Of a stretch of DNA of 64,000 nucleotides, positions 12,422 to 63,356 are shown piece after piece (position 1 is the stretch's first letter; each line of letters opens with the position of its first letter). Made by a program: the position numbers and the translations under genes. The stretch covers positions 508,501-572,500 of the forward strand of contig NZ_CP102428.1 in assembly GCF_024652905.1 (NCBI RefSeq), given 5' to 3'. The DNA is from Pseudomonas oryzihabitans (GTDB lineage Bacteria; Pseudomonadota; Gammaproteobacteria; Pseudomonadales; Pseudomonadaceae). Under the pieces are notes generated by a model, which saw only the letters and a list, made by a program, of their open reading frames with translations, was not told where the DNA came from and made no database searches.

Positions 12422-14091
12422 TGCAGCGCGTTCTCCTCGCGTTGTTGTTGCTGGTACCAGAATTTGCGGCGCAGCAGCTCGTCCGGGTTGTCGGGAATCT
12501 CTCGCAGCCATTGCTCGGCGGCCTGACGCTGTTCTTCCGCCAGGGGATCTTCGGCATAGGCCGGCGCGACGAGCCAGTCCGCGCCGGCCTGAGCCTGCTG
12601 CTGCGGACTGGCCGCGGCAGTCGCCGTGGACGGCGAGGTACTGCTGCTGGCCGGCTCGTCCGCCTGGGCGCTGCTCTGGCTGGCGTTCTGCGCCTTGCGA
12701 CTGCGGGCGACGGCCTCGGCCTGGGCCGCGGCGCGCTGGGCGAGCAGGCGTTCGAGACGGTTGCGATTACGCAGGGCAGCGGTCAGATCGGGACGCAACA
12801 CCAGCGCCGCCCGGTAGGCGCGCAGAGCCTCTTCCAGGCGTCCGGCCATGGCCAGAGCATTGCCGCGATTGTAGTGGCCGTCCGCCGACGGATCCCGGGC
12901 GAAGGCCGCGGCGGCGCCGCTGAAGTCGCCCGCGCGATAGCGTGCCACGCCGCGCCAGCGCTCGTCGGTGAAGAGGTCGGCGGCCGCCGCGGCCTGGTCG
13001 TCGGCCAGCAGCTGCAGGGCCTGTTGATCGCGGCGCAACCAGAGGTCGTCCCAGCTGCCGGCCTGGGCGGGAGGCGGCGTCAGCAACAGGCAGAAGGGCA
13101 GGCACAGCAACCAGCCGCGGCGCGCGCCGCAGGCGACCAGAAGCAGTAGGGGCAGAAGCAGCAGGTAGCCCTGGTCGCGCCAGTCCGAGGGGCCCTGGCC
13201 ATCGCTGGCCCGCACAGCGTCGGGGCGTTCCAGCAGACCAAGGCGACGCAGGTCGCTGTCGTCGCGCTGCAGACGTTGATAGCGCCCGCCCAGCTCGCGG
13301 GCGACGCCTTGCAGGTGGCCTTCGTCCAGTCGAGCGATGCGGATGCCGCCGGCGGCGTCGCTCAGGTAGTTGCCGGTCTCGGCTGCCACCGGGGCGCCCT
13401 GAGGCGTACCCGGACCGAGGATCGCCAGCTGGCGCAGCCGACCTTGCAACTGGCGCTCGATCCCCTGCCGTTCGCGGTCATCCAGGTCGCTGGCGATGAG
13501 CAGCAGTCGGGCGCTGGCACTGGGGGCCGGGCCGAGCAACTCCAGGGCCTGGGCGATGCCCAGGTCGGCGCGCTGGCCTGGCACCGGCATGATCGACGGC
13601 CGCAGCGCCTTGAGCAGATTGTCCATGGTCGGCAGATCGTCGGTCAGGGGCACCAGGGTGTGAGCGCTGCCGGCATAGACGACGAAGGCGGTCTCGCCGT
13701 CCTGGCGCGCCTTGAGCAGGTCCTGCAGCTTGCGCTGCACCGCCAGCAGGCGATTGGGGGTGACGTCGGTGGCGAGCAGGTCGGGCGTCAGCGCCAGCAC
13801 CACCACCAGCGGATCGTTACGGCGAAAGTTCTGCTGTTCACCCTGCTGCCAGCTGGGGCCGGCCAGGGCCAGGCAGGCCAGCAGGCCGGTCAGACCCAGC
13901 AGCATCAGGCCGAGGGGCGAGCGCTGGCGCTCGCTGTCGCTGAGCAGCCAGGGTTGCAGCGCCGGCGGCAGCAGCGCCTGCCAGCGCCCGTGGCGATGGC
14001 GGCGCTGGCGAAGTGACCAGATCACCAGAGCGACCGGCAGCAGCGCCAGCAGCCACCAGGGACGCAGGAACAGCGGCAGCCAGTCGTTCAT
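12418..14091 (-). CDS. BatB/BatC fusion: VWA plus TPR protein
   Basis: A 557-residue membrane protein. Two N-terminal helices are followed by a von Willebrand A domain (about 95-260), more membrane helices near 315-350, two or three TPR repeats (YRAGDFSGAAAAFARDPS, HYNRGNALAMAGRLEEALRA) and a Gln/Ala/Ser-rich tail. Elsewhere BatB and BatC can be separate. The metal site DxSxS is not intact: the strand reads VVVLALTPDLLATDV at 96-110. Four-base overlaps join it to batA and batD. It probably acts with MoxR in envelope protein assembly. Confidence 0.85.
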   Translation of the reverse strand: MNDWLPLFLRPWWLLALLPVALVIWSLRQRRHRHGRWQALLPPALQPWLLSDSERQRSPLGLMLLGLTGLLACLALAGPSWQQGEQQNFRRNDPLVVVLALTPDLLATDVTPNRLLAVQRKLQDLLKARQDGETAFVVYAGSAHTLVPLTDDLPTMDNLLKALRPSIMPVPGQRADLGIAQALELLGPAPSASARLLLIASDLDDRERQGIERQLQGRLRQLAILGPGTPQGAPVAAETGNYLSDAAGGIRIARLDEGHLQGVARELGGRYQRLQRDDSDLRRLGLLERPDAVRASDGQGPSDWRDQGYLLLLPLLLLVACGARRGWLLCLPFCLLLTPPPAQAGSWDDLWLRRDQQALQLLADDQAAAAADLFTDERWRGVARYRAGDFSGAAAAFARDPSADGHYNRGNALAMAGRLEEALRAYRAALVLRPDLTAALRNRNRLERLLAQRAAAQAEAVARSRKAQNASQSSAQADEPASSSTSPSTATAAASPQQQAQAGADWLVAPAYAEDPLAEEQRQAAEQWLREIPDNPDELLRRKFWYQQQQREENALQ

Positions 14092-15086
14092 GTGGCCTTG
14101 CCTCCGCGCCGCCAGCGCCGTGGCCACGGCAGGCGGCCAAGGGCCAGGGCCAGGCCGAGCAGCAACGCCCCGGCCAGCGGCCAGGCATAGAGCTCGCGGG
14201 TGGGACGGGCCTGGTCCGGCTGCTGGCGGATGGGTTCGAGACGGTCGAGCTGGTGCGACACGGCGGCCAGTTCGGCGCTGGATCTCACCCGGAAGTAGGC
14301 GCCGTTGGTGACCTCGGCGAGGTGCCGCAGCATGGGTTCGTCAAGGTCGCTGGGCGTCGTGCCGGCACCCAGGGTATCCGGGTCGGCGCCGATGCCCAGG
14401 GTATAGACGCGCACCCGCTCGCTGGCCGCCAGGCTGGCTGCCACCGCGGGCGTCAGCACGCCGCCGTTGCTGGCCCCGTCGGTGACCAGGATCAGGGTGC
14501 GGCTGTTGTCCGGGCGCTTACGCAGGTGCTTGACCGCCAGGCCCACGGCGTCGCCCACCGCCGTGTTGCGCCCCGCGAGTCCGATCTGGGCTTCTTCGAG
14601 GAGGGCATGCACCGTGCGCCGGTCGGCGGTCAAGGGCGCCTGCAGATAGGCCTGGGAACCGAACAGGATCAGCCCGACGCGATCGCCCTGGCGGCTGTCG
14701 ATGAAGCGGCCAAGCAATTGCTTGACCAGGCTCAGGCGGCTGACGCTCTCGTCGCCCAGCTGCATGTCCGGGGTGTCCATCGAGCCGGAGACATCCACCG
14801 CCAGCAGCAGGTCGCGACCGCTCACGTCCAGCGGCTGGGGCGGTCCCACCCATTGCGGCCGGGCCGCCGCGCCCAGGATCAGCAGCCAGCCCAGCAGAAA
14901 GGGCAGCAGGCGGCGGGCGCCGCCCAGGCCGCCGGTATGGCGGGTGCGCCCGCCGAGGTGTTCGAGTTCACCGAGGAATTCCACACGCAGGGCCGCCTGG
15001 CCGCTGTCGGCCGCCGGCAGGAGTACGCGCAGCAGCCAGGGCAGCGGCAGCAGCAGCCACAACCAGGGCCAGGCAAATTCAAACAT
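14088..15086 (-). CDS. batA: BatA-like VWA-domain membrane protein
   Basis: A 332-residue protein with N-terminal helices, a VWA domain with an intact metal site (AVDVSGSMDTPD, Asp98) and a C-terminal helix (LYAWPLAGALLLGLALALG). TRSQ-type residues near TDGASNGG complete the metal site. VWA proteins next to MoxR ATPases act as adaptors, as in the CoxDE and RavA-ViaA systems. ATG 15086 gives MFEFAWPWLW, the family start, and overlaps the preceding gene by 8 bases. Confidence 0.88.
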   Translation of the reverse strand: MFEFAWPWLWLLLPLPWLLRVLLPAADSGQAALRVEFLGELEHLGGRTRHTGGLGGARRLLPFLLGWLLILGAAARPQWVGPPQPLDVSGRDLLLAVDVSGSMDTPDMQLGDESVSRLSLVKQLLGRFIDSRQGDRVGLILFGSQAYLQAPLTADRRTVHALLEEAQIGLAGRNTAVGDAVGLAVKHLRKRPDNSRTLILVTDGASNGGVLTPAVAASLAASERVRVYTLGIGADPDTLGAGTTPSDLDEPMLRHLAEVTNGAYFRVRSSAELAAVSHQLDRLEPIRQQPDQARPTRELYAWPLAGALLLGLALALGRLPWPRRWRRGGKAT

Positions 15087-15573
15087 GCTTGCGGATCCAG
15101 GTGGCGACGGCGTCCTGCAGGCCGTCGATGGCGCGGTCGTCCAGCCGGCAATCCGGGCGATAGCCGCCATCGACCAGGATCATGTAGCGCGTCAGACCGG
15201 CCGCCGGACAGCGCGAATCGAGAAAGGCCAGCCAGTCGCGCCCGCTCAGGGTCTGGCTCAGCTGATCCGGATAGCTGGCCCGGCAAAGGCGCTTGAGCAG
15301 GGCGTTCAGGGCCTGCAACCAGGGCCCAGCCGGCGCGCCATAGGGGCGCGGCAGCCGCGCCAGCTCGGCCAGGGCGGTGGTGCGCAGGTCCTCTTCGGTA
15401 GTCGGCTCGACGAGGGGCGCGCTGACCAGGGGCCGCCGACCATGGCGGTGACGCAGAAAGAAGCCCAGCGCCACCACGACCAATACCAGCAGCCACCAGC
15501 CCGGCGCCGGTGGCCAGAAGGCCGGCTCCGGCGGCAGCCGCAGCGGCTCCAGACTTGGCGGCCCGGGCGTCAC
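15079..15573 (-). CDS. DUF4381 membrane protein of the MoxR/Bat operon
   Basis: A 164-residue protein with one membrane helix (PGWWLLVLVVVALGFFL, about residues 24-40) followed by a cytoplasmic helical domain (LRTTALAELARLPRPYG). DUF4381 proteins regularly lie between the DUF58 and BatA genes. The GTG start overlaps the DUF58 stop in a GTGA, indicating coupled translation. Its role is unknown but presumably structural within the MoxR-VWA complex. Confidence 0.82.
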   Translation of the reverse strand: MTPGPPSLEPLRLPPEPAFWPPAPGWWLLVLVVVALGFFLRHRHGRRPLVSAPLVEPTTEEDLRTTALAELARLPRPYGAPAGPWLQALNALLKRLCRASYPDQLSQTLSGRDWLAFLDSRCPAAGLTRYMILVDGGYRPDCRLDDRAIDGLQDAVATWIRKHV

Positions 15574-33245: not shown

Positions 33246-33321
33246 GGGTCGTTAGCTCAGTCGGTAGAGCAGTTGGCTTTTAACCAATTGGTCGTAGGTT
33301 CGAATCCCACACGACCCACCA
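33246..33321 (+). tRNA. tRNA-Lys (anticodon UUU)
   Basis: A 76-base tRNA including an encoded CCA end. The acceptor stem GGGTCGT pairs with ACGACCC. The D-loop region reads GTTAGCTCAGTCGGTAGAGC, the anticodon loop CTTTTAA carries TTT at 33279-33281, and the T-arm has GGTTCGAATCC. This is the tRNA-Lys that follows queC in Pseudomonas and is a known integration site of pKLC102/PAPI-type ICEs. Here ICE genes begin straight after it, so its 3' part presumably forms the left attachment site. Confidence 0.97.
33300..33321. other. Presumed attL core of the ICE (3' end of tRNA-Lys)
   Basis: ICEs of this type recombine at the 3' end of tRNA genes, leaving a direct repeat of about 20 bases at each end. 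The T-arm and acceptor end of tRNA-Lys is the expected core. The matching attR is not in the window, so the exact limits are inferred. Confidence 0.5.
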
Positions 33322-34630: not shown

Positions 34631-36492
34631 TCTTCGACCGCCCCCGTTTCCTGTAAGCGCAAACTGCAATTGTCAAAAGGCGGTTGATTGAAAATTAGTT
34701 TTGGATCCTCTAGCAGATAGCCTTTGAGGCTCTTTGTCTTGCGGGGGCCCACGACTTCGCACGTCCAGATGTTGAGGTTGTCTGCTGTCTTTCTGTGCTG
34801 CTTCAGCTTTTCGAAAGCACGTTGCACCAGTTGCCAGGGATCTAGCTGTCTGGCCTTGGCGTCGATTTCTAAGTGGGGATGCTCTTGGGCGTATCGCTTG
34901 AACAGGCCTGGGCTAACCAGGAAAGCGGTGCCATCTACCGTGTGGATCATCGCTTTGGCATCGTTGATCAATAGCTTGTGTGAAAGCACGCCTTGGCGGC
35001 TCCAGGCTATGAATGCCTGGCCTAAGTCGGCTGTAGTGATCGATTCAGCTCTTGAATGGGTTGTGGCAGCGATAACGTGTTCTGAAAGGTTATCCACGTC
35101 TTGGAGAGTTGGCGCTTCATGGGCTGAAACTGCTGGGGCCTGAGGTGTTGCAGCGAATAGGTCGTCTGCCAGTGCGAGTATGTCTTCCATGGGGTCCAAA
35201 CCGGTCTGGAATGCGGGCTGCGGCAGTGTTTCGGAATAGGCCATCGCTTGTGAAGATGTGACATTCGTCACATCTTGTGATATCGGATGTGATGGCAAAG
35301 TGATATCGCTCGCTGTGCCAGGGTGCGCTATTCCTGGCGGTCCGTCCTCGGTCTGCTCAAGCGTGAAAATTCCTGAAAAAGGGGCTGGTCGATCTGCAGG
35401 GTCGGGCCATATCAGCGCAGGCGCGACCTTGAGAAGGGTAAAGGTGTTCTTCCATCCGTGACCGGTATCGATCGTGGCCTTCCAGATAGCCTTGTCCTGA
35501 GCGTTGACCTGGATGATGGCCTGATCCTGGATCAGGTTGAAGAACGGTGCATTCGAGGTGGGAATGCCCTCCACACCCTGGGAGAGCATCAGTGCTCGCA
35601 GCTGGTCTGAGGCAGGCTTGCTCACGAGCCATAGCGCATCTTGGGTCAGCCACCCGTCCGACGGCCCATCTGGCTGGTTCAGCTTGAATTTCTCGATGAC
35701 CAGGGTGCGTAGCCCATCGGCCAGCTGACGCTGAATCGTATTTCTGGGCGCCTCCATCGCGCGATGCGGGTTCGCGCCGAGCTCTTGAGCGACACTCGCC
35801 TGGTCAGCCTGGACGATCATTTCCCCCAGGACACCGGCGTGCTGGTATTGCCCGGCCAAGACGAAGATCAGTGATGACCAGAGTTCACGATAGCCGCTGA
35901 GCCAGTCCAGTACATGCGGTGGCAGCACCTGGAAGTAGACGAGGGCTGAGGCAGCACTATGTAGCTGGTAGTCCCGACCCTTGACGTACCGAAAGCGGTA
36001 GGGCTTTTCGATCCGGCCGTGCCAGGGGTGCCAGGGCTTGCCATCTTCATGGACAACCTCGATGTCGACGGCAATCTTGCCTAGGTCATGGAGGAGGGCG
36101 CCGTAGGCGACCGCTGCAGACCAGGCCTCTGCCTGGGCCGCCTGCGACTCCGGTGGCGCGCCGATAGGCAGAAGGTAGTTCTGCCGGATCTTGAGGGCGT
36201 AGGCGACGATCTCCAGGCCGTGATCGAGGAGGCCCCCGGGGTAGGCGTGGTGGTGGTTTTCCGAAGCAGGAAGCTGCTGTACCAGGTCAGCGTAGCGTTC
36301 AAGGGGATCTCGGTAGAGCGAGGCAAACTGCTCGCGTGACAGTGACGTCCGCTGCCAGATGTTCTCGATGAGCTTCTGTCGGCGGGGGAGGGCAAGGAGA
36401 TCCCTACCTATGGACGGCTGCGTGAAGCCCTGTTTGCCTGGGCCGGGTGGTGGGGATGGTGGGGCTTTCTTCCTGAAAAAGAGATCGAACAT
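34627..36492 (-). CDS. traI: MobH-family relaxase TraI (TIGR03760-like)
   Basis: A 621-residue relaxase thought to nick the transfer origin of this ICE class. The N-terminal TraI_2 domain carries the HD-type motifs of MobH enzymes: HHHAYPGGLLDH (about residues 78-90) and LLHDLGKIAVDIEVVHEDG (about 130-150). A variable middle follows, then a C-terminal domain (about 500-600) that resembles the usual DUF1528-type end. ATG 36492 gives MFDLFFRKKAPP. Its end overlaps the integrase start, so relaxase and integrase are co-translated. Confidence 0.9.
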   Translation of the reverse strand: MFDLFFRKKAPPSPPPGPGKQGFTQPSIGRDLLALPRRQKLIENIWQRTSLSREQFASLYRDPLERYADLVQQLPASENHHHAYPGGLLDHGLEIVAYALKIRQNYLLPIGAPPESQAAQAEAWSAAVAYGALLHDLGKIAVDIEVVHEDGKPWHPWHGRIEKPYRFRYVKGRDYQLHSAASALVYFQVLPPHVLDWLSGYRELWSSLIFVLAGQYQHAGVLGEMIVQADQASVAQELGANPHRAMEAPRNTIQRQLADGLRTLVIEKFKLNQPDGPSDGWLTQDALWLVSKPASDQLRALMLSQGVEGIPTSNAPFFNLIQDQAIIQVNAQDKAIWKATIDTGHGWKNTFTLLKVAPALIWPDPADRPAPFSGIFTLEQTEDGPPGIAHPGTASDITLPSHPISQDVTNVTSSQAMAYSETLPQPAFQTGLDPMEDILALADDLFAATPQAPAVSAHEAPTLQDVDNLSEHVIAATTHSRAESITTADLGQAFIAWSRQGVLSHKLLINDAKAMIHTVDGTAFLVSPGLFKRYAQEHPHLEIDAKARQLDPWQLVQRAFEKLKQHRKTADNLNIWTCEVVGPRKTKSLKGYLLEDPKLIFNQPPFDNCSLRLQETGAVEE

Positions 36493-36638
36493 GGCATGCC
36501 CTTGGTAGTTCTTGGGCCTGCGTTGTCGATCAGCGGGGTCGTGCGAACAATGGTAAACCGCTATCACTGTCCAGAAGGTTGAGGCGGCGGATGGCCACTA
36601 GGATCGAGAGCCGGGACACCCTTTGCTCTTCGCAGCCA
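36493..36638. promoter_or_regulatory. Upstream region of the traI-int operon
   Basis: This 146-base stretch between the relaxase start and the IS3-type end has no gene. It should carry the traI-int promoter. I see no clear -35/-10 pair, riboswitch or origin-like repeat in it. Confidence 0.35.
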
Positions 36639-42839: not shown

Positions 42840-44210
42840 CTATTCGTCACAGGTATTCACAGCTTTCGCTATTGCCAGACGATATTCAGCTGGACTGCGC
42901 CCACCCAGTGCCAATTTGATTCGCTCCTTATTGTAGTAGTCGATATAGGCCCGAATTGCTACTGCCAGCTCCTCTACGCTTGAGAACCTGTTGCAGTGGA
43001 AAAGCTCAGATTTTAGTACTGCAAAAAAGCTTTCCATTGCCGCATTGTCGAGGCAATTGGCTCGCCTTGACATACTCTGAGTCAGTCCATGCTGACGGAT
43101 CAGCTGTTGGTAGGCAGGGTATTGATAGTGCCAGCCTTGATCGGAATGGATGAGCGGTTTCTCATGAGGCCGAAGGGTCTTCAATCCGTCTTTCAACATA
43201 CGTAAGACCATCTCGAACGATGGGCGCTCACTTATCTCGAAAGCCACAATTTCCTTATTGAAGAGGTCAAGAATCGGTGACAGGTATAGCCGGTTTTGAT
43301 TGACACGAAACTCCGTTATGTCAGTCGCCCACCGCTGATTGGGCTGCGGTGCGGTAAAGCGGCGTTCCAGCAGGTTAGGCGCCACGCAGGACTCCGGCCC
43401 TGTGAATGGACGATAGCGACGGCGTCGCAGCGTGCACTTTAACGACATTTCGCCCATCAGCCGCTGTACTGCCTTGTGATTGATCTGCTGCCCCTGATTG
43501 CGTAGCGCCTGCGTGATGCGGCGATAGCCATAGCGACCCCGATGATGCGCGAACATCGTCCGGATGCTCTCTTTGCGGGCACCTTGTTTGTCTGGTTGGC
43601 GAGTGACCTTGAGGTGGTAGTAGAAGCTGCTTCGAGGAAGACATGCTCCCTGAAGAAGCGCATCAAGTGGATATCGTGACCGCAACTCCTGCACGATAAG
43701 TGCTTTCTGCTGATTGTCCAGGTCACTGTCCTTGAGACCCAAGCTCATGGCTTTGCGCAGAAAGGCGTTTTTGACCTGCAGATAGGCAACCTGCTTTTCC
43801 AGCTCTCGGACTGGGTTTGCGATGTGGGGCTTGAAAGCGGATGGATCTGGAACGGGAAGAAGGGGCAAGGAGTCACCTCTGCGTTTGCTGGCCAACCCCT
43901 CGATACCATACCTCTGCCACGCATCGACCCAGCGCTGCATTTGGGAGCGATTGAGACTAAATCGCTCACTAGCCCGTCGGATTGATAGGCCTTCGACGAT
44001 CTGTCGCACCACCTCGATCTTGAAATCGATGCTGTGATAACGATAACGCTTTTGTAGAGCCGCTTTTCCGTGATTGGCATAGGCGCCAATCCATCCTTTT
44101 ACCTGCACCACGCTGACGTCATGCACCCTAGCGAGGTGGCCGTAGCTGCAATCGCCCTTTTAGTACTGAGCGACGATCTTCAATTTGAACGCTAGAGAGT
44201 ACTTGGGCAT
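42840..44210 (-). pseudogene. IS3-family transposase with premature TAA at codon 17
   Basis: From ATG 44210 the frame encodes 456 residues but is broken by TAA at 44,162-44,160 (MPKYSLAFKLKIVAQY then stop). Beyond it, 428 or more residues are intact: HTH domains (IVEGLSIRRASERFSLNRSQ), a Leu-rich coiled coil, and an rve domain with the DDE residues in WATDITEF, IHSDQGWHY and NAAMESFFAVLKSE. OrfA and OrfB lie in a single frame, where many IS3 relatives need a frameshift. A GTG at 44,126 could restart translation, so the enzyme may still be made in shortened form. Confidence 0.82.
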
Positions 44211-48838: not shown

Positions 48839-49786
48839 TCATTGAAAGTCGGTGCTGCCCAGGAAGACCTGGCCTTCACGCTTGCAGCAGCTGTAGGGGC
48901 GCCACAGCGCCCAGGCGTAGGCGCCCACGGCGTCTTGGACGTGTGGGCCCGGGCTGGGAAAGGCAGCGCAGCTCTGGCTTAGCGTGGGCGTGAGCTCCTG
49001 CCACTTGCCGGTGGTGGCGTCGCCCTCGAGCAGCTCGCCCGCGGGCCAATAACCGTCCTCGGGCTGGGCAAGCAGCGACTGATAGACGTGGATCTGGCCA
49101 GAGCGCGTGACGACGTCGCCGGCGCGCTGGGCCATGACCGCCGCGGCCTTGTAGTCGTCGGGCTGATGCAGGAAGCCGCTGCGCGGATAGACATTGCCCC
49201 ACAGGTCGCCGGACAAGGTGCCGCCCACTTCGCGCTTGCCCGGGATGAGGGCCTCCGGATACACGACCTCAGGAATGCCGTACCGCCAAGCCAGGTAGTC
49301 GTAGTTGCTCAGTAGATAGGGCATGTAGGCGGTACCGGCGCCTTTGCAGGTGTAGCCGGAGCCGCTGGCGAACTGACTGAAGGCGTAGCCACCCGGGTGG
49401 CCGATGACTTCAGTGTTCTTGAAGCGGGCGCTGATCGTCGCGTTCGCCTGGGTCGCGCTGTCGCCCGGATCGTTGCCACCAGCGGCGACAGTGCTGACTG
49501 GGCTGAAAGAGGCCATCTCGGTCCACGGGTTCTCGCCGGTATTGGCGTAGCTGGACACCACCGCATCGGGCACGAAGTGCCGTACCTTGGCCGAGGTCTT
49601 AACCTTGCAGCCGTAGGGGGTGCAGAACAGCCAATAGCAGATGCCGACCACCTTGTATTCGAGGCATTCAGGCGAGAGCGAGGACGACACGATGGTCGCG
49701 GTGGTGACCGCTGCCGTGGCCTGCAGGCTGGTGGCCAGCGGGATGGCCAGTACGAGGCGCCGGAGGCGCTGCAGACGCGGCGTCAT
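48839..49786 (-). CDS. ICE protein TIGR03756 (TraU-like, PFL_4710 family)
   Basis: A 315-residue exported protein of the TraU-like group. A signal sequence (VLAIPLATSLQATA) is followed by a Cys-rich region (ECLEYKVVGICYWLFCTPYG, then CKVKTSAKVRHFVPD). More Cys come near the end (RPYSCCKREGQVFLGS). TraU proteins are needed for DNA transfer and need disulfides, fitting the DsbA-like protein encoded nearby. The start overlaps the TIGR03757 stop (ATGA). Confidence 0.87.
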   Translation of the reverse strand: MTPRLQRLRRLVLAIPLATSLQATAAVTTATIVSSSLSPECLEYKVVGICYWLFCTPYGCKVKTSAKVRHFVPDAVVSSYANTGENPWTEMASFSPVSTVAAGGNDPGDSATQANATISARFKNTEVIGHPGGYAFSQFASGSGYTCKGAGTAYMPYLLSNYDYLAWRYGIPEVVYPEALIPGKREVGGTLSGDLWGNVYPRSGFLHQPDDYKAAAVMAQRAGDVVTRSGQIHVYQSLLAQPEDGYWPAGELLEGDATTGKWQELTPTLSQSCAAFPSPGPHVQDAVGAYAWALWRPYSCCKREGQVFLGSTDFQ

Positions 49787-50220
49787 CGTCCGGTGCTCCG
49801 GAAGCGCTCGATGCTGGCCATGGCGGCCGCCACGTCAGGCTGGCCATAGACCACATACTGACGATCCACTACGACGGCCGGTAGCTTGGCCACACCCAGG
49901 CTCCAGGCATCGGCCACGTCCTGGTGCGCCCTGGCAAGGTCACGGCCCAGCTGCTGTGCAGAGGCCGAGCGCATCCGCTGTTGCATGATAGCTACGGCCT
50001 GGTGCGGATCCGCCGGCAGGCCTTCGGAGAGCTTTTGCTCAAGGCGGTCCGGGGCATCCAGAAGTAAAACCCGGGTGCCGGCGCTGTTGATGAGCGGATG
50101 AGCGGCGTCGGAGATGGCCAGCACGTCCGCTGTGGCGAAGGGGACGCAGGCGGTGGCTAGGACAAAGCCCAGCAGGCGGGCTTTCAGGCCTGCTGAGAAG
50201 GTAGGGGGGGAAATGGACAT
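49783..50220 (-). CDS. ICE protein TIGR03757 (DUF1525, PFL_4709 family)
   Basis: A 145-residue exported protein with a signal peptide and a thioredoxin-like fold without the CxxC (LARAHQDVADAWSLGVAKLP, AVVVDRQYVVYGQPDVAAAM). This pattern is typical of DUF1525/TrbC-type transfer proteins. It is the first gene of the operon through traG. A conserved block shared with the other transfer operon lies 55-100 bases upstream. Confidence 0.87.
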   Translation of the reverse strand: MSISPPTFSAGLKARLLGFVLATACVPFATADVLAISDAAHPLINSAGTRVLLLDAPDRLEQKLSEGLPADPHQAVAIMQQRMRSASAQQLGRDLARAHQDVADAWSLGVAKLPAVVVDRQYVVYGQPDVAAAMASIERFRSTGR

Positions 50221-50632
50221 GCGCGGTACCAGGCAGAGGAGTGGCTGGTACAGGAAACGCGATCAGAAGGGCTGGGTCAGCGGGAAACCATATCTACGTC
50301 GCAGGAGGTTGAATACCCACATCCGAACGGAAGGAGCCTGCTGCGGGTTTCCGCAGTAATTGCGACTTTCTGCGGGATTTCGCATGGACTGTTGTGGGAT
50401 GGCTTTAATGGCCTCGTCAAAGCACGGGGGCTGCTATCGACCCAAAGCTGCCGTTGGCGGTCGACCCGTAGCTGACCTTCGGCGAGGGCGGTAAACGACC
50501 AGAAGCAGGTTATACGGGTGCTGTTCTTCGGCTAGGCCGGCAGTTGGCAGATCACCTGCCTGCAGGTGAGGGCCGAAAAAATCGCGGTGGCCTAGATGAC
50601 GAGTGGCTGACGCCTGCCTACGATCATATCCC
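50221..50632. other. Upstream region of the TIGR03757 operon; left part of the accessory pocket
   Basis: No gene is convincing in these 412 bases. The right end of the conserved 46-base regulatory block (50,275-50,320) and, further right, a GC-rich stretch with ACCTGCCTGCAGGT palindromic text near 50,550 are the only features I can point out. Confidence 0.4.
50275..50320 (-). promoter_or_regulatory. Conserved regulatory block upstream of the TIGR03757 operon
   Basis: The plus-strand text GGTCAGCGGGAAACCAT, 14 variable bases, then AGGTTG and a close ACCC region occurs here and at 62,828-62,873 with identical spacing (46 bases). Both copies lie 55-60 bases before the first gene of a minus-strand transfer operon and are read in the same orientation. 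A shared promoter or activator site is the simplest reading. Confidence 0.65.
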
Positions 50633-62179: not shown

Positions 62180-62419
62180 TTAATGCAAGATCAGCCAGGA
62201 CAGGACGAAGTAGAGGAGCAGCCCCTTGATGAGGGCGCCCTTGGCCGCGGCGGGTTTGAGGTTCTGATTCGCCCAGCCCTTGTAGAGGCTGATGGCGAGC
62301 CAGGCGAACCAGAGGGTGGTGACGGCCATGGCCGCGGAGAGCCAGAACAGGTTGCTGGCTGAAGGCGGTATGCCACTCGCCGCCTGAAAGGCAGCGGTTT
62401 GCGCAGCGGTCATGCTCAT
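62180..62419 (-). CDS. TIGR03758 ICE protein
   Basis: A 79-residue membrane protein with two helices (NLFWLSAAMAVTTLWFAWL and GALIKGLLLYFVLSWLIL). TIGR03758 is the PFL_4701 family and is a hallmark of this ICE class. Its start overlaps the RAQPRD gene by 4 bases. Confidence 0.9.
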   Translation of the reverse strand: MSMTAAQTAAFQAASGIPPSASNLFWLSAAMAVTTLWFAWLAISLYKGWANQNLKPAAAKGALIKGLLLYFVLSWLILH

Positions 62420-62769
62420 GGCTGGGCGCCTTCGCGCTGGTACTGACCGGAGAGTTCGGCTGCATCGCGTGGCTGCGCGCGGCTCGGTGCCAGATAGTCC
62501 TGCAGGCCCTGACGGATTCGCGCAATGTCAGCGGCTAGGCGGTTGTAGTCCAGGCGGTAACGGGTGCTGCCATCGCTGGGCAACTCGGCACTGCGCCGGG
62601 CGACGGCCTCGACAGCGTTGAGCTGCCTAATCATCACGTCGACGTTGGCCTGCTCGGAGGCGGTGCCAGCGGCCTGGGCCTGACTCGTCAGGATCCCGAG
62701 CGCGATGGCCAGACTGCCGGCAACGGCGAAGCGGCGGGTTGGCGTGCGAGGGTAGGAGGACAGTTTCAC
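62416..62769 (-). CDS. RAQPRD family ICE protein
   Basis: A 117-residue exported protein with a signal sequence (FAVAGSLAIALGILTSQAQA) and the family name motif RAQPRD near the C-terminus. It is the first gene of the operon from RAQPRD to at least traC, and probably to 53,407. A conserved regulatory block lies about 58 bases upstream. Confidence 0.92.
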   Translation of the reverse strand: MKLSSYPRTPTRRFAVAGSLAIALGILTSQAQAAGTASEQANVDVMIRQLNAVEAVARRSAELPSDGSTRYRLDYNRLAADIARIRQGLQDYLAPSRAQPRDAAELSGQYQREGAQP

Positions 62770-62827
62770 AGCGGGGGCCCTGGGCTAGCGGGTTGATGCC
62801 GCACAGGATGCCGAGGGCCGTAGGCGA

Positions 62828-62873
62828 GGTCAGCGGGAAACCATTACTGCACTCAAATAGGTTGCAAACCCGC
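62828..62873 (-). promoter_or_regulatory. Conserved regulatory block upstream of the RAQPRD operon
   Basis: GGTCAGCGGGAAACCAT (62,828-62,844, plus-strand text), then 14 variable bases and AGGTTG, matches 50,275-50,320 with the same spacing. It should hold the promoter of the largest transfer operon. Confidence 0.65.
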
Positions 62874-62877
62874 TTGG

Positions 62878-63207
62878 TTACTGGCTTCCGATCGGGACGA
62901 TGAGTCGCTTGAAAAACAGCAGAAAGCCGGTAGCCACCGCGTAGCCAACGCCCCAGCCCTGGTTTCCCTGGGCAGTCTGCTGGCCGACCTGGGCGCGGCC
63001 TTCCAGTACCGGCTGCACGCTGACTAGCTCCCAGCCGTCAGCGCCGAGAGCCTGCAGCCGTGTCTGTCGCTCGGGATCGGCGAGAAAGGCGGCGATATCG
63101 GGGGTACCGGTTTGCACCTCTTGCTTGAACAACAGCCAGCCGCGTTCTTGGACACGGTAGGTGAGGGGAGCGAATTCGGTGTGGTATTCGAAGCGGGCAG
63201 GGGACAT
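62878..63207 (-). CDS. DUF4177-like membrane protein of the ICE
   Basis: A 109-residue protein. The N-terminal part (RFEYHTEFAPLTYRVQERGW, ALGADGWELVSVQPV) resembles DUF4177, a small alpha/beta domain of unknown role. The C-terminus has one membrane helix (GVGYAVATGFLLFFKRLIV). It has its own upstream region and lies before the RAQPRD operon in the same direction. Confidence 0.6.
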   Translation of the reverse strand: MSPARFEYHTEFAPLTYRVQERGWLLFKQEVQTGTPDIAAFLADPERQTRLQALGADGWELVSVQPVLEGRAQVGQQTAQGNQGWGVGYAVATGFLLFFKRLIVPIGSQ

Positions 63208-63356
63208 GGACGGCTCCAGTTCGATGGGCTTGTCATCTTCGAACTGGCCTCATTGCCCTTACGAGGTAAAACCGTATTCAAGTCCTAAACGGTTACAGCT
63301 GGGTGACGAACGAAACCGCCGCCTATGCTGTCGTTAGGAAAATCACGGGAGGTTGT

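Follow-up and report, generated by a model that had tools for sequence, protein, structure and literature searches.

A two-block site before the transfer operons of a Pseudomonas oryzihabitans ICE is probably the place of the element's own activator

The window analyzed here (the whole 64-kb stretch, C1:508501-572500, of the Pseudomonas oryzihabitans contig NZ_CP102428.1) contains a portion of a roughly 107-kb ICE that sits in a tRNA-Lys gene. Two of its operons, referred to by their TIGR03757 and RAQPRD genes, are each preceded by a copy of the same site (A and B). The features are given below in window positions.

33282-33321 (C1:541782), plus strand: left attachment repeat (tRNA-Lys 3′ end), a 40-bp direct repeat with its partner at C1:648890
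49783-50220, minus strand: TIGR03757 family ICE protein gene, the first of its operon (E 2.3e-39)
50252-50257, minus strand: −10-like TTTCCT of site A, 17 bp from the −35, with the final T and a second position other than A
50275-50318, minus strand: site A, box and −35-like hexamer before the TIGR03757 operon, with CTGACC at 50275-50280
62416-62769, minus strand: RAQPRD family (TIGR01690) gene (E 6e-25)
62805-62810, minus strand: −10-like CATCCT of site B, 17 bp from the −35
62828-62871, minus strand: site B, box and −35-like hexamer before the RAQPRD operon, with CTGACC at 62828-62833

The ICE genes beyond the window encode TIGR03764 ParB-family, DUF2857, DnaB-like helicase, ParA-like, and AcaB/PFL_4669 (TIGR03761) proteins. 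A transposase-like ORF (rve, HTH_21) lies in the ICE at window positions 42840-44126.

The sequence GGTCAGCGGGAAACCAT occurs exactly twice in the window, at 50275-50291 and 62828-62844. A sequence-only reading had placed a two-block pattern before the TIGR03757 and RAQPRD operons, in the same arrangement and orientation, and both copies were found there (minus strand, 50283-50318 and 62836-62871); they are the two occurrences in the 64-kb window, with an expected count of 0.00 in 100 dinucleotide shuffles of it. Both operons lie on the minus strand; in the direction of the genes, the unit is therefore GGGTnTnCAACCT-N14-ATGGTTTCCCGCTGACC. Site A lies 55 bp from the TIGR03757 ATG (50220) and site B 59 bp from the RAQPRD GTG (62769), and the site starts are 12,553 bp apart, in agreement with the 55 bases and roughly 12.5 kb given previously. 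A shorter form of the pattern with fewer than 2 mismatches matched only sites A and B in the 5.22-Mb genome; with 2 or 3 mismatches it matched four other places, and the backwards control also gave 2 matches. There is little similarity between the two upstream regions beyond the block, which is therefore not a duplicated segment. Block order and spacing are kept in same-genus elements, as the reading would predict. Its third part, an ACCC region, fared less well: AACCT and GGTTTCCCGCTGACC are retained with few changes in the 6 other same-genus TIGR03757 copies, all of which lack the GGGT, and the ACCC block, for which conservation is not general, was removed from the core. What is conserved reads (T/C)AACCT-N14-(T/C)GGTTTCCCGCTGACC, small changes allowed, and the unit reaches about 23 bp past the blocks, up to the −10-like hexamer.

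A first weight matrix was built from the same-genus TIGR03757 and RAQPRD sites only and scanned over 184 kb. It matched sites A and B and four more sites in the ICE, all on the minus strand just before genes; outside the ICE it gave one weak chromosomal match (4.4 bits), and its reversed control gave zero matches. A second matrix combined the sites of the first with the four new ICE sites. The four further clear sites and two weaker ones are as follows.

C1:580329, minus strand: site before the TraD-containing operon (34.7 bits)
C1:639203, minus strand: site before the AcaB/PFL_4669 gene (22.3 bits)
C1:621801, minus strand: site before the topoisomerase III gene (6.1 bits)
C1:634999, minus strand: site before the pilus region (5.4 bits), so labeled from gene order and the pKLC102 annotation, without a family match
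Window 36545-36583, minus strand: weaker site before the TraI_2 relaxase gene (13.1 bits)
Window 63259-63297, minus strand: weak site before the small gene at 62878-63207 (7.9 bits), 431 bp before site B

All four further clear sites are on the coding strand of their genes. The relaxase site has counterparts of 16.5 and 16.0 bits in genomes G113 and G075, and the counterparts of the 63259 site (16.3 and 18.2 bits, respectively) also lie 431 bp before the RAQPRD site. The second-matrix reversed control was empty for the P. oryzihabitans region and G075 and reached 13.9 bits in G113; given this control, and because G113 and G075 are close relatives, the two weak sites are insecure by score alone. 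A plus-strand match of the second matrix at C1:549883 (8.1 bits) is probably spurious. The ICE total is six clear and two weaker sites, and no good copy of the box was found elsewhere in the genome by the 5.22-Mb pattern search or, by matrix, in 77 kb of ICE flank. The proposal that the block turns on the whole conjugation machine together is supported by this distribution, with clear copies at the TraD operon, AcaB/PFL_4669, topoisomerase, and pilus region and a weaker one at the relaxase. The promoter-like relaxase site overlaps GTG 36567, at which the longest relaxase ORF (end 34627) begins, so the gene probably starts at an ATG near 36492. G113 also holds a strong extra window-type site (54.4 bits; C1:4915490-4915528, L149), about 1.7 kb before its TIGR03757 site and with an ATG behind it. 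Before the AcaB gene, some eleven palindromic repeats, TGATGCCAnTGGCATCA and variants of it, recur every 39 bp at G000 C1:639380-639790 (L136:6880-7290), and the matching place of pKLC102 carries repeats with a 57-bp period (14703-15159); the palindromic repeats are possibly a replication origin.

In the six clear ICE sites, a CTGACC-like 3′ hexamer is followed after exactly 17 bp by a −10-like hexamer (TTTCCT, CATCCT, GACCGT, CACCCT, CAGGGT, and CACCGT). At the relaxase site, the hexamer at 17 bp is GACAAC, with no final T, and the 63259 site has a T only at 18 bp (−10-like GAAGAT), with none at 17 bp.

The TIGR03757 family was found in 57 of 298 Pseudomonadaceae genomes, and 71 of its 74 listed places were taken as stretches, leaving out the window's own and the two weakest. 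The window variant occurs in ten upstream regions of same-genus elements. When upstream regions were compared within each element, other families were seen to share a diverged block between their TIGR03757 and RAQPRD operons, and many elements had no clear shared block in this comparison. EM was run on 94 unique upstream regions out of 118, with ICEclc excluded, and found the motif AAtnCGG-N13-CsnATTgTTTGcnG in 72 of the 94. On the real sequences, 30 runs with random seeds gave up to 81, and shuffled sequences gave at most 12 of 94 in 40 randomly seeded runs. Reversed upstream regions and coding slices (up to 45/94 and 42/54 sites) were discarded as nulls in favor of the shuffles, since a backwards copy of the motif survives in the reversed set and the coding slices share homology. 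Conservation of the motif sets in sharply at −26 and ends near +11. Position +36, which is outside the EM window, is a T in 66 of the 72 sites, and nAnnnT is found at this register in 28 sites versus 0 to 7 at other registers. The best dyad axis lies at −10.5 with the half-sites inverted, and the center of the window variant AACC/GGTT is half a base off this general axis. Among 16 mirror pairs tested, three co-vary at levels reached by none of 2000 permutations: 0/−21 (50 matches versus 36.5 expected), 3/−24 (29 versus 16.8), and −3/−18 (55 versus 48.2), each of 72. Three further pairs have p values of 0.01 to 0.03, and −2/−19 falls below chance (24 versus 28.3 of 72). Because the sequences are related and hence not independent, the significance is lower than these figures suggest.

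The Pseudomonas aeruginosa element pKLC102 (NC_019202.1) was scanned with a 40-bp matrix. Sites were found before PFL_4669, the pilus operon, the TIGR03759-TraD operon, RAQPRD, TIGR03757, and mobH (7.5 bits), and gene 65373 is preceded by a weak one (1.9 bits); these scores are to be read beside a reversed control of up to 8.7 bits and near relatives in the training set. One more site, at 74764, is not directly followed by a gene, and 8 of the 15 gene starts tested, including that of topA, are without a site. The distance from the −10 end to the start codon is 26 to 36 bp. pKLC102 shares with the P. oryzihabitans ICE a ParB-DUF2857 gene pair and sites at matching operons; its half-sites read AAATAC/GTATTTCC in contrast to AACC/GGTT. 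The layout for which a comparison with this element had been proposed is thus kept in it, as it is in many Pseudomonadaceae ICEs.

ICEclc was examined in the copy of genome G157, which is probably P. knackmussii B13: it has two equally scoring TIGR03757 places, and its ORF stops match seven ICEclc names within 0 to 15 bp. A matrix trained without ICEclc loci gave 11 matches at or above the cut-off of 8 bits, and its reversed control gave none at that cut-off. Seven of the matches lie before genes: ORF67231 (37.7 bits), ORF73676 (32.5), TIGR03757 (29.4), ORF81655 (22.2), topB (20.2), ORF88400 (13.1), and orf95213 (10.9). In ORF73676, TIGR03757, and orf95213, the −10 falls after the beginning of the longest frame, and the true starts must therefore lie later. 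The four other matches (12.9, 12.4, 12.1, and 9.3 bits) are 402 to 5066 bp from gene starts, and the 12.9-bit match is the ORF81655 site on the opposite strand. Neither the surroundings of the relaxase (about C1:3417426) nor the final 18 kb, in which the integrase presumably lies, gave a match of at least 8 bits. The regions before alpA (−3.8) and ORF58432 (−8.5) did not exceed the 95th percentile of random windows (−0.6). The sequence CTATCCCnGGGATAG occurs three times in this copy (C1:3373227, 3373369, and 3375378), near the orf95213 and topB sites.

According to the accessible text of Sulser et al. 2022 (PMC9286271), a 27-bp MEME motif occurs in eight of nine bimodal promoters of ICEclc, the transfer-competence promoters are active in stationary phase, and the late promoters under the BisDC cascade include those of ORF67231, ORF81655, ORF88400, and inrR. 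Sites found here coincide with the first three of these published promoters. The stop of orf95213 overlaps the inrR start, and we infer that PinR lies before orf95213 and is a fourth coinciding promoter; a distance of 152 bp to the mapped PinR start, given in a legend of the same source (PMC9286271), does not suit the present −10 if it is counted from the motif. ORF73676 is described there as up in RNA-seq, with an isolated fragment that lacked activity, and P58432 is counted as motif bearing (PMC9286271). The TIGR03757 site was considered as P58432 and dropped, because it lies 64 bp after the ORF58432 stop. The published motif was matched with the present sites by position alone. ICEclc and the P. 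oryzihabitans ICE have matching sites at the RAQPRD operon (ORF67231) and the AcaB-like orf95213, with the same −10 spacing, and differ in box letters (AATCCGG/ATTGTTTGCGG in ICEclc versus AACCT/GGTTTCCCGCTG).

In a set of 22 sites from ICEclc (7), pKLC102 (7, the weak 65373 site being omitted), and the P. oryzihabitans ICE (8), the −10 T is at +36 in 19 (7, 6, and 6, respectively) and nAnnnT is present in 15 (6, 4, and 5). The last six bases of the box occupy the position expected of a −35, with a poor −10 usually exactly 17 bp on. The suggestion of a dimeric activator site or an unusual promoter is compatible with this layout, which may be read as an activator box over the −35 with a weak −10.

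A candidate activator is encoded in the ICE. The TIGR03764 ParB-family gene (E 2.7e-110) adjoins the DUF2857 gene (E 4.9e-33) at C1:641170-643732, and the two proteins are 41% identical to BisD and 32% identical to BisC of ICEclc, respectively; by these identities, the pair corresponds to BisD and BisC. In the accessible text of PMC7423338, bisDC alone activates Pint and PinR of ICEclc in an ICE-free host. The available part of a 2026 report (PMC13393423) describes ParB-like BisD as sliding from bisS boxes and co-activating core promoters with BisC, and cites Antar et al. 2025 for the BisD-CTP clamp. Four 17-bp palindromes, AGTTCGGAnTCCGAACT, spaced by 44, 54, and 44 bp, lie in the STY4528-family gene beside bisC (G000 C1:640336-640494; L136:7836-7994), with identical spacing in G113 and pKLC102 (13792-13934). 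They are candidate loading sites for ParB-like BisD, perhaps like the bisS boxes of ICEclc.

Box type was compared with BisC in 34 elements paired with a BisC homologue, pairings across contigs being assumed. All 7 elements with a window-type BisC (at least 60% identical) had window-type boxes, versus 0 of 27 others. The general-type box, split by eye into ICEclc-like and pKLC102-like letters and called with a matrix trained on most of the 34 elements, was found with 15 of 15 ICEclc-like, 4 of 4 pKLC102-like, and 1 of 8 distant BisC proteins (G065); the pKLC102 TIGR03757 box falls below its cut-off (12.4). The other 7 of 8 elements with a distant BisC had no recognized box. Genome G036 carries two elements, one ICEclc-like and one window-type, and the box type differs between them accordingly. 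Of the 33 genomes with DUF2857, 28 are also TIGR03757 genomes, and in the same-genus sample both families occur in one identical set of eight genomes, with neither family in five genomes. Three genomes (G056, G239, and G010; L082, L061, and L130) have TIGR03757 boxes and no DUF2857 match in the genome; decayed islands, incomplete assemblies, or another activator are options for these.

BisC was described as FlhC-like by Phyre2 in the accessible text of PMC7423338. By sequence, it was not placed in the FlhC family (PF05280), DUF2857 being the sole family found. An hhalign comparison of BisC with seven FlhC sequences was weak (E 0.025, probability 1.9), and the BisC profile found no FlhC among PDB sequences. 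A BisC relative from a viral contig was modeled as helical (mean pLDDT 74, from two sequences). Its best VIA-align row was Cupriavidus necator FlhDC (8j56_F; Z 9.0, 109 residues, rmsd 3.0; next row, 6.1), where a Z below 13 can be a common helical arrangement, and Foldseek alone gave nothing below E 0.001. As given in the accessible part of PMC9962212, the FlhDC box has inverted AAAT...ATTT half-sites separated by N18-20, and the pKLC102 RAQPRD box, AAATAC-N16-GTATTT, holds AAAT-N20-ATTT, inside this spacing. The present boxes do not conserve the outer left arm of the FlhDC site, however, and the window variant has AACC/GGTT instead. AcaCD of IncA/C plasmids and SGI1 is, in the accessible parts of PMC5058578 and PMC4207636, a two-subunit activator of the FlhDC family that switches transfer operons; its class II site is also at the −35 position, with no obvious −35, but has the core GCCCAAAATGGGC and a −10 that is 22 to 24 bp away, versus 17 bp at the present boxes. 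The candidate activator of the P. oryzihabitans ICE also differs from AcaCD in consisting of a DUF2857 protein and a ParB-like protein. Features of FlhDC/AcaCD class II promoters found in the present sequences are a site at the −35, a fixed −10 distance, and inverted half-sites.

We consider it likely that the block is a sigma-70 promoter that depends on an activator, the BisD-BisC pair of the element, and that it is a variant of the ICEclc motif. Two half-sites about two DNA turns apart would form the activator box: AACC...GGTT here, AAATAC...GTATTT in the pKLC102 RAQPRD box, and AATCCGG...ATTG in the ICEclc type. The 3′ end of the box would replace a good −35, with the weak −10 placed 17 bp downstream, and the activator would most likely be the BisD-BisC pair. 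Acting on the six clear and two weaker copies, it would join the relaxase, coupling protein, secretion channel, pilus, topoisomerase, and AcaB-like protein into one regulon. We infer BisC/BisD binding, class II activation, the transcription starts, and the dependence on BisDC. The control site before about eight genes or gene clusters is thus probably the place of the element's own activator.

It is unlikely, to our judgment, that the same class of promoter is bound by another regulator of the element, either AcaB/PFL_4669 or an unannotated protein, with BisDC working at an earlier step of the cascade. The element does carry the AcaB/TIGR03761 gene, which bears its own site, the three genomes above have boxes and no DUF2857 match, and box type tracks the whole element lineage rather than BisC alone, as it would for other element factors; against this, bisDC suffices for Pint and PinR in the accessible report (PMC7423338), and other reported ICEclc late promoters carry boxes. 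Two conserved blocks with a fixed 14-bp gap also look like a −35/−10 pair, as in a promoter read by an alternative host sigma factor, and the stationary-phase activity of the ICEclc promoters in the accessible text (PMC9286271) would suit such a factor. This is quite improbable, as the host sigma factor alone cannot set box type where two types coexist (G036), no good copy was found outside the ICE by the 5.22-Mb pattern search or, by matrix, in 77 kb of flank, the half-sites co-vary as mirror pairs, and farther downstream there is a conserved −10-like T distinct from the two blocks. Post-transcriptional control by a leader RNA or a translational element appears very improbable: the block lies 55 to 59 bp ahead of the start codons, and both copies contain a mini-ORF of four codons (ATG GTT TCC CGC TGA), but several same-genus copies (ACGG and AAGG) and other families have lost the ATG at an unchanged −10 spacing, and the mini-ORF reading was rejected for this lack of conservation. 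The window holds only two near-identical copies, as chance or recent duplication without function might give, but this is scarcely credible: none is expected in shuffles, the flanks are unrelated, and the comparative data refute it, since other elements keep the block ahead of the same genes.

That ICEclc late promoters share a motif is already published (PMC9286271), and this is not a new kind of system. A literature search by title and abstract, outside subscription papers and supplements, gave no description of the box in pKLC102-type or tRNA-Lys elements, of the 17-bp register, or of the tracking of box and BisC. Tentatively, and at a little short of even confidence, the activator-box reading may extend to a pan-family code of G-type ICEs, in which an FlhDC-like BisD-BisC acts on half-sites spaced by about 20 bp at the −35, followed by the 17-bp step. 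The letters would have diverged with BisC (AACC, AAATAC, and AATCCGG), so that co-resident ICEs, as in G036, would be wired to separate switches.

ICEs of the pKLC102 and ICEclc types spread pathogenicity, metabolic, and resistance genes, and how their transfer genes are switched on jointly is under active study. A box readable from sequence would outline the regulon of an element without experiments, its type would predict possible cross-activation between co-resident ICEs, and it makes the proposed contact of BisC/BisD with the promoter testable at base resolution.
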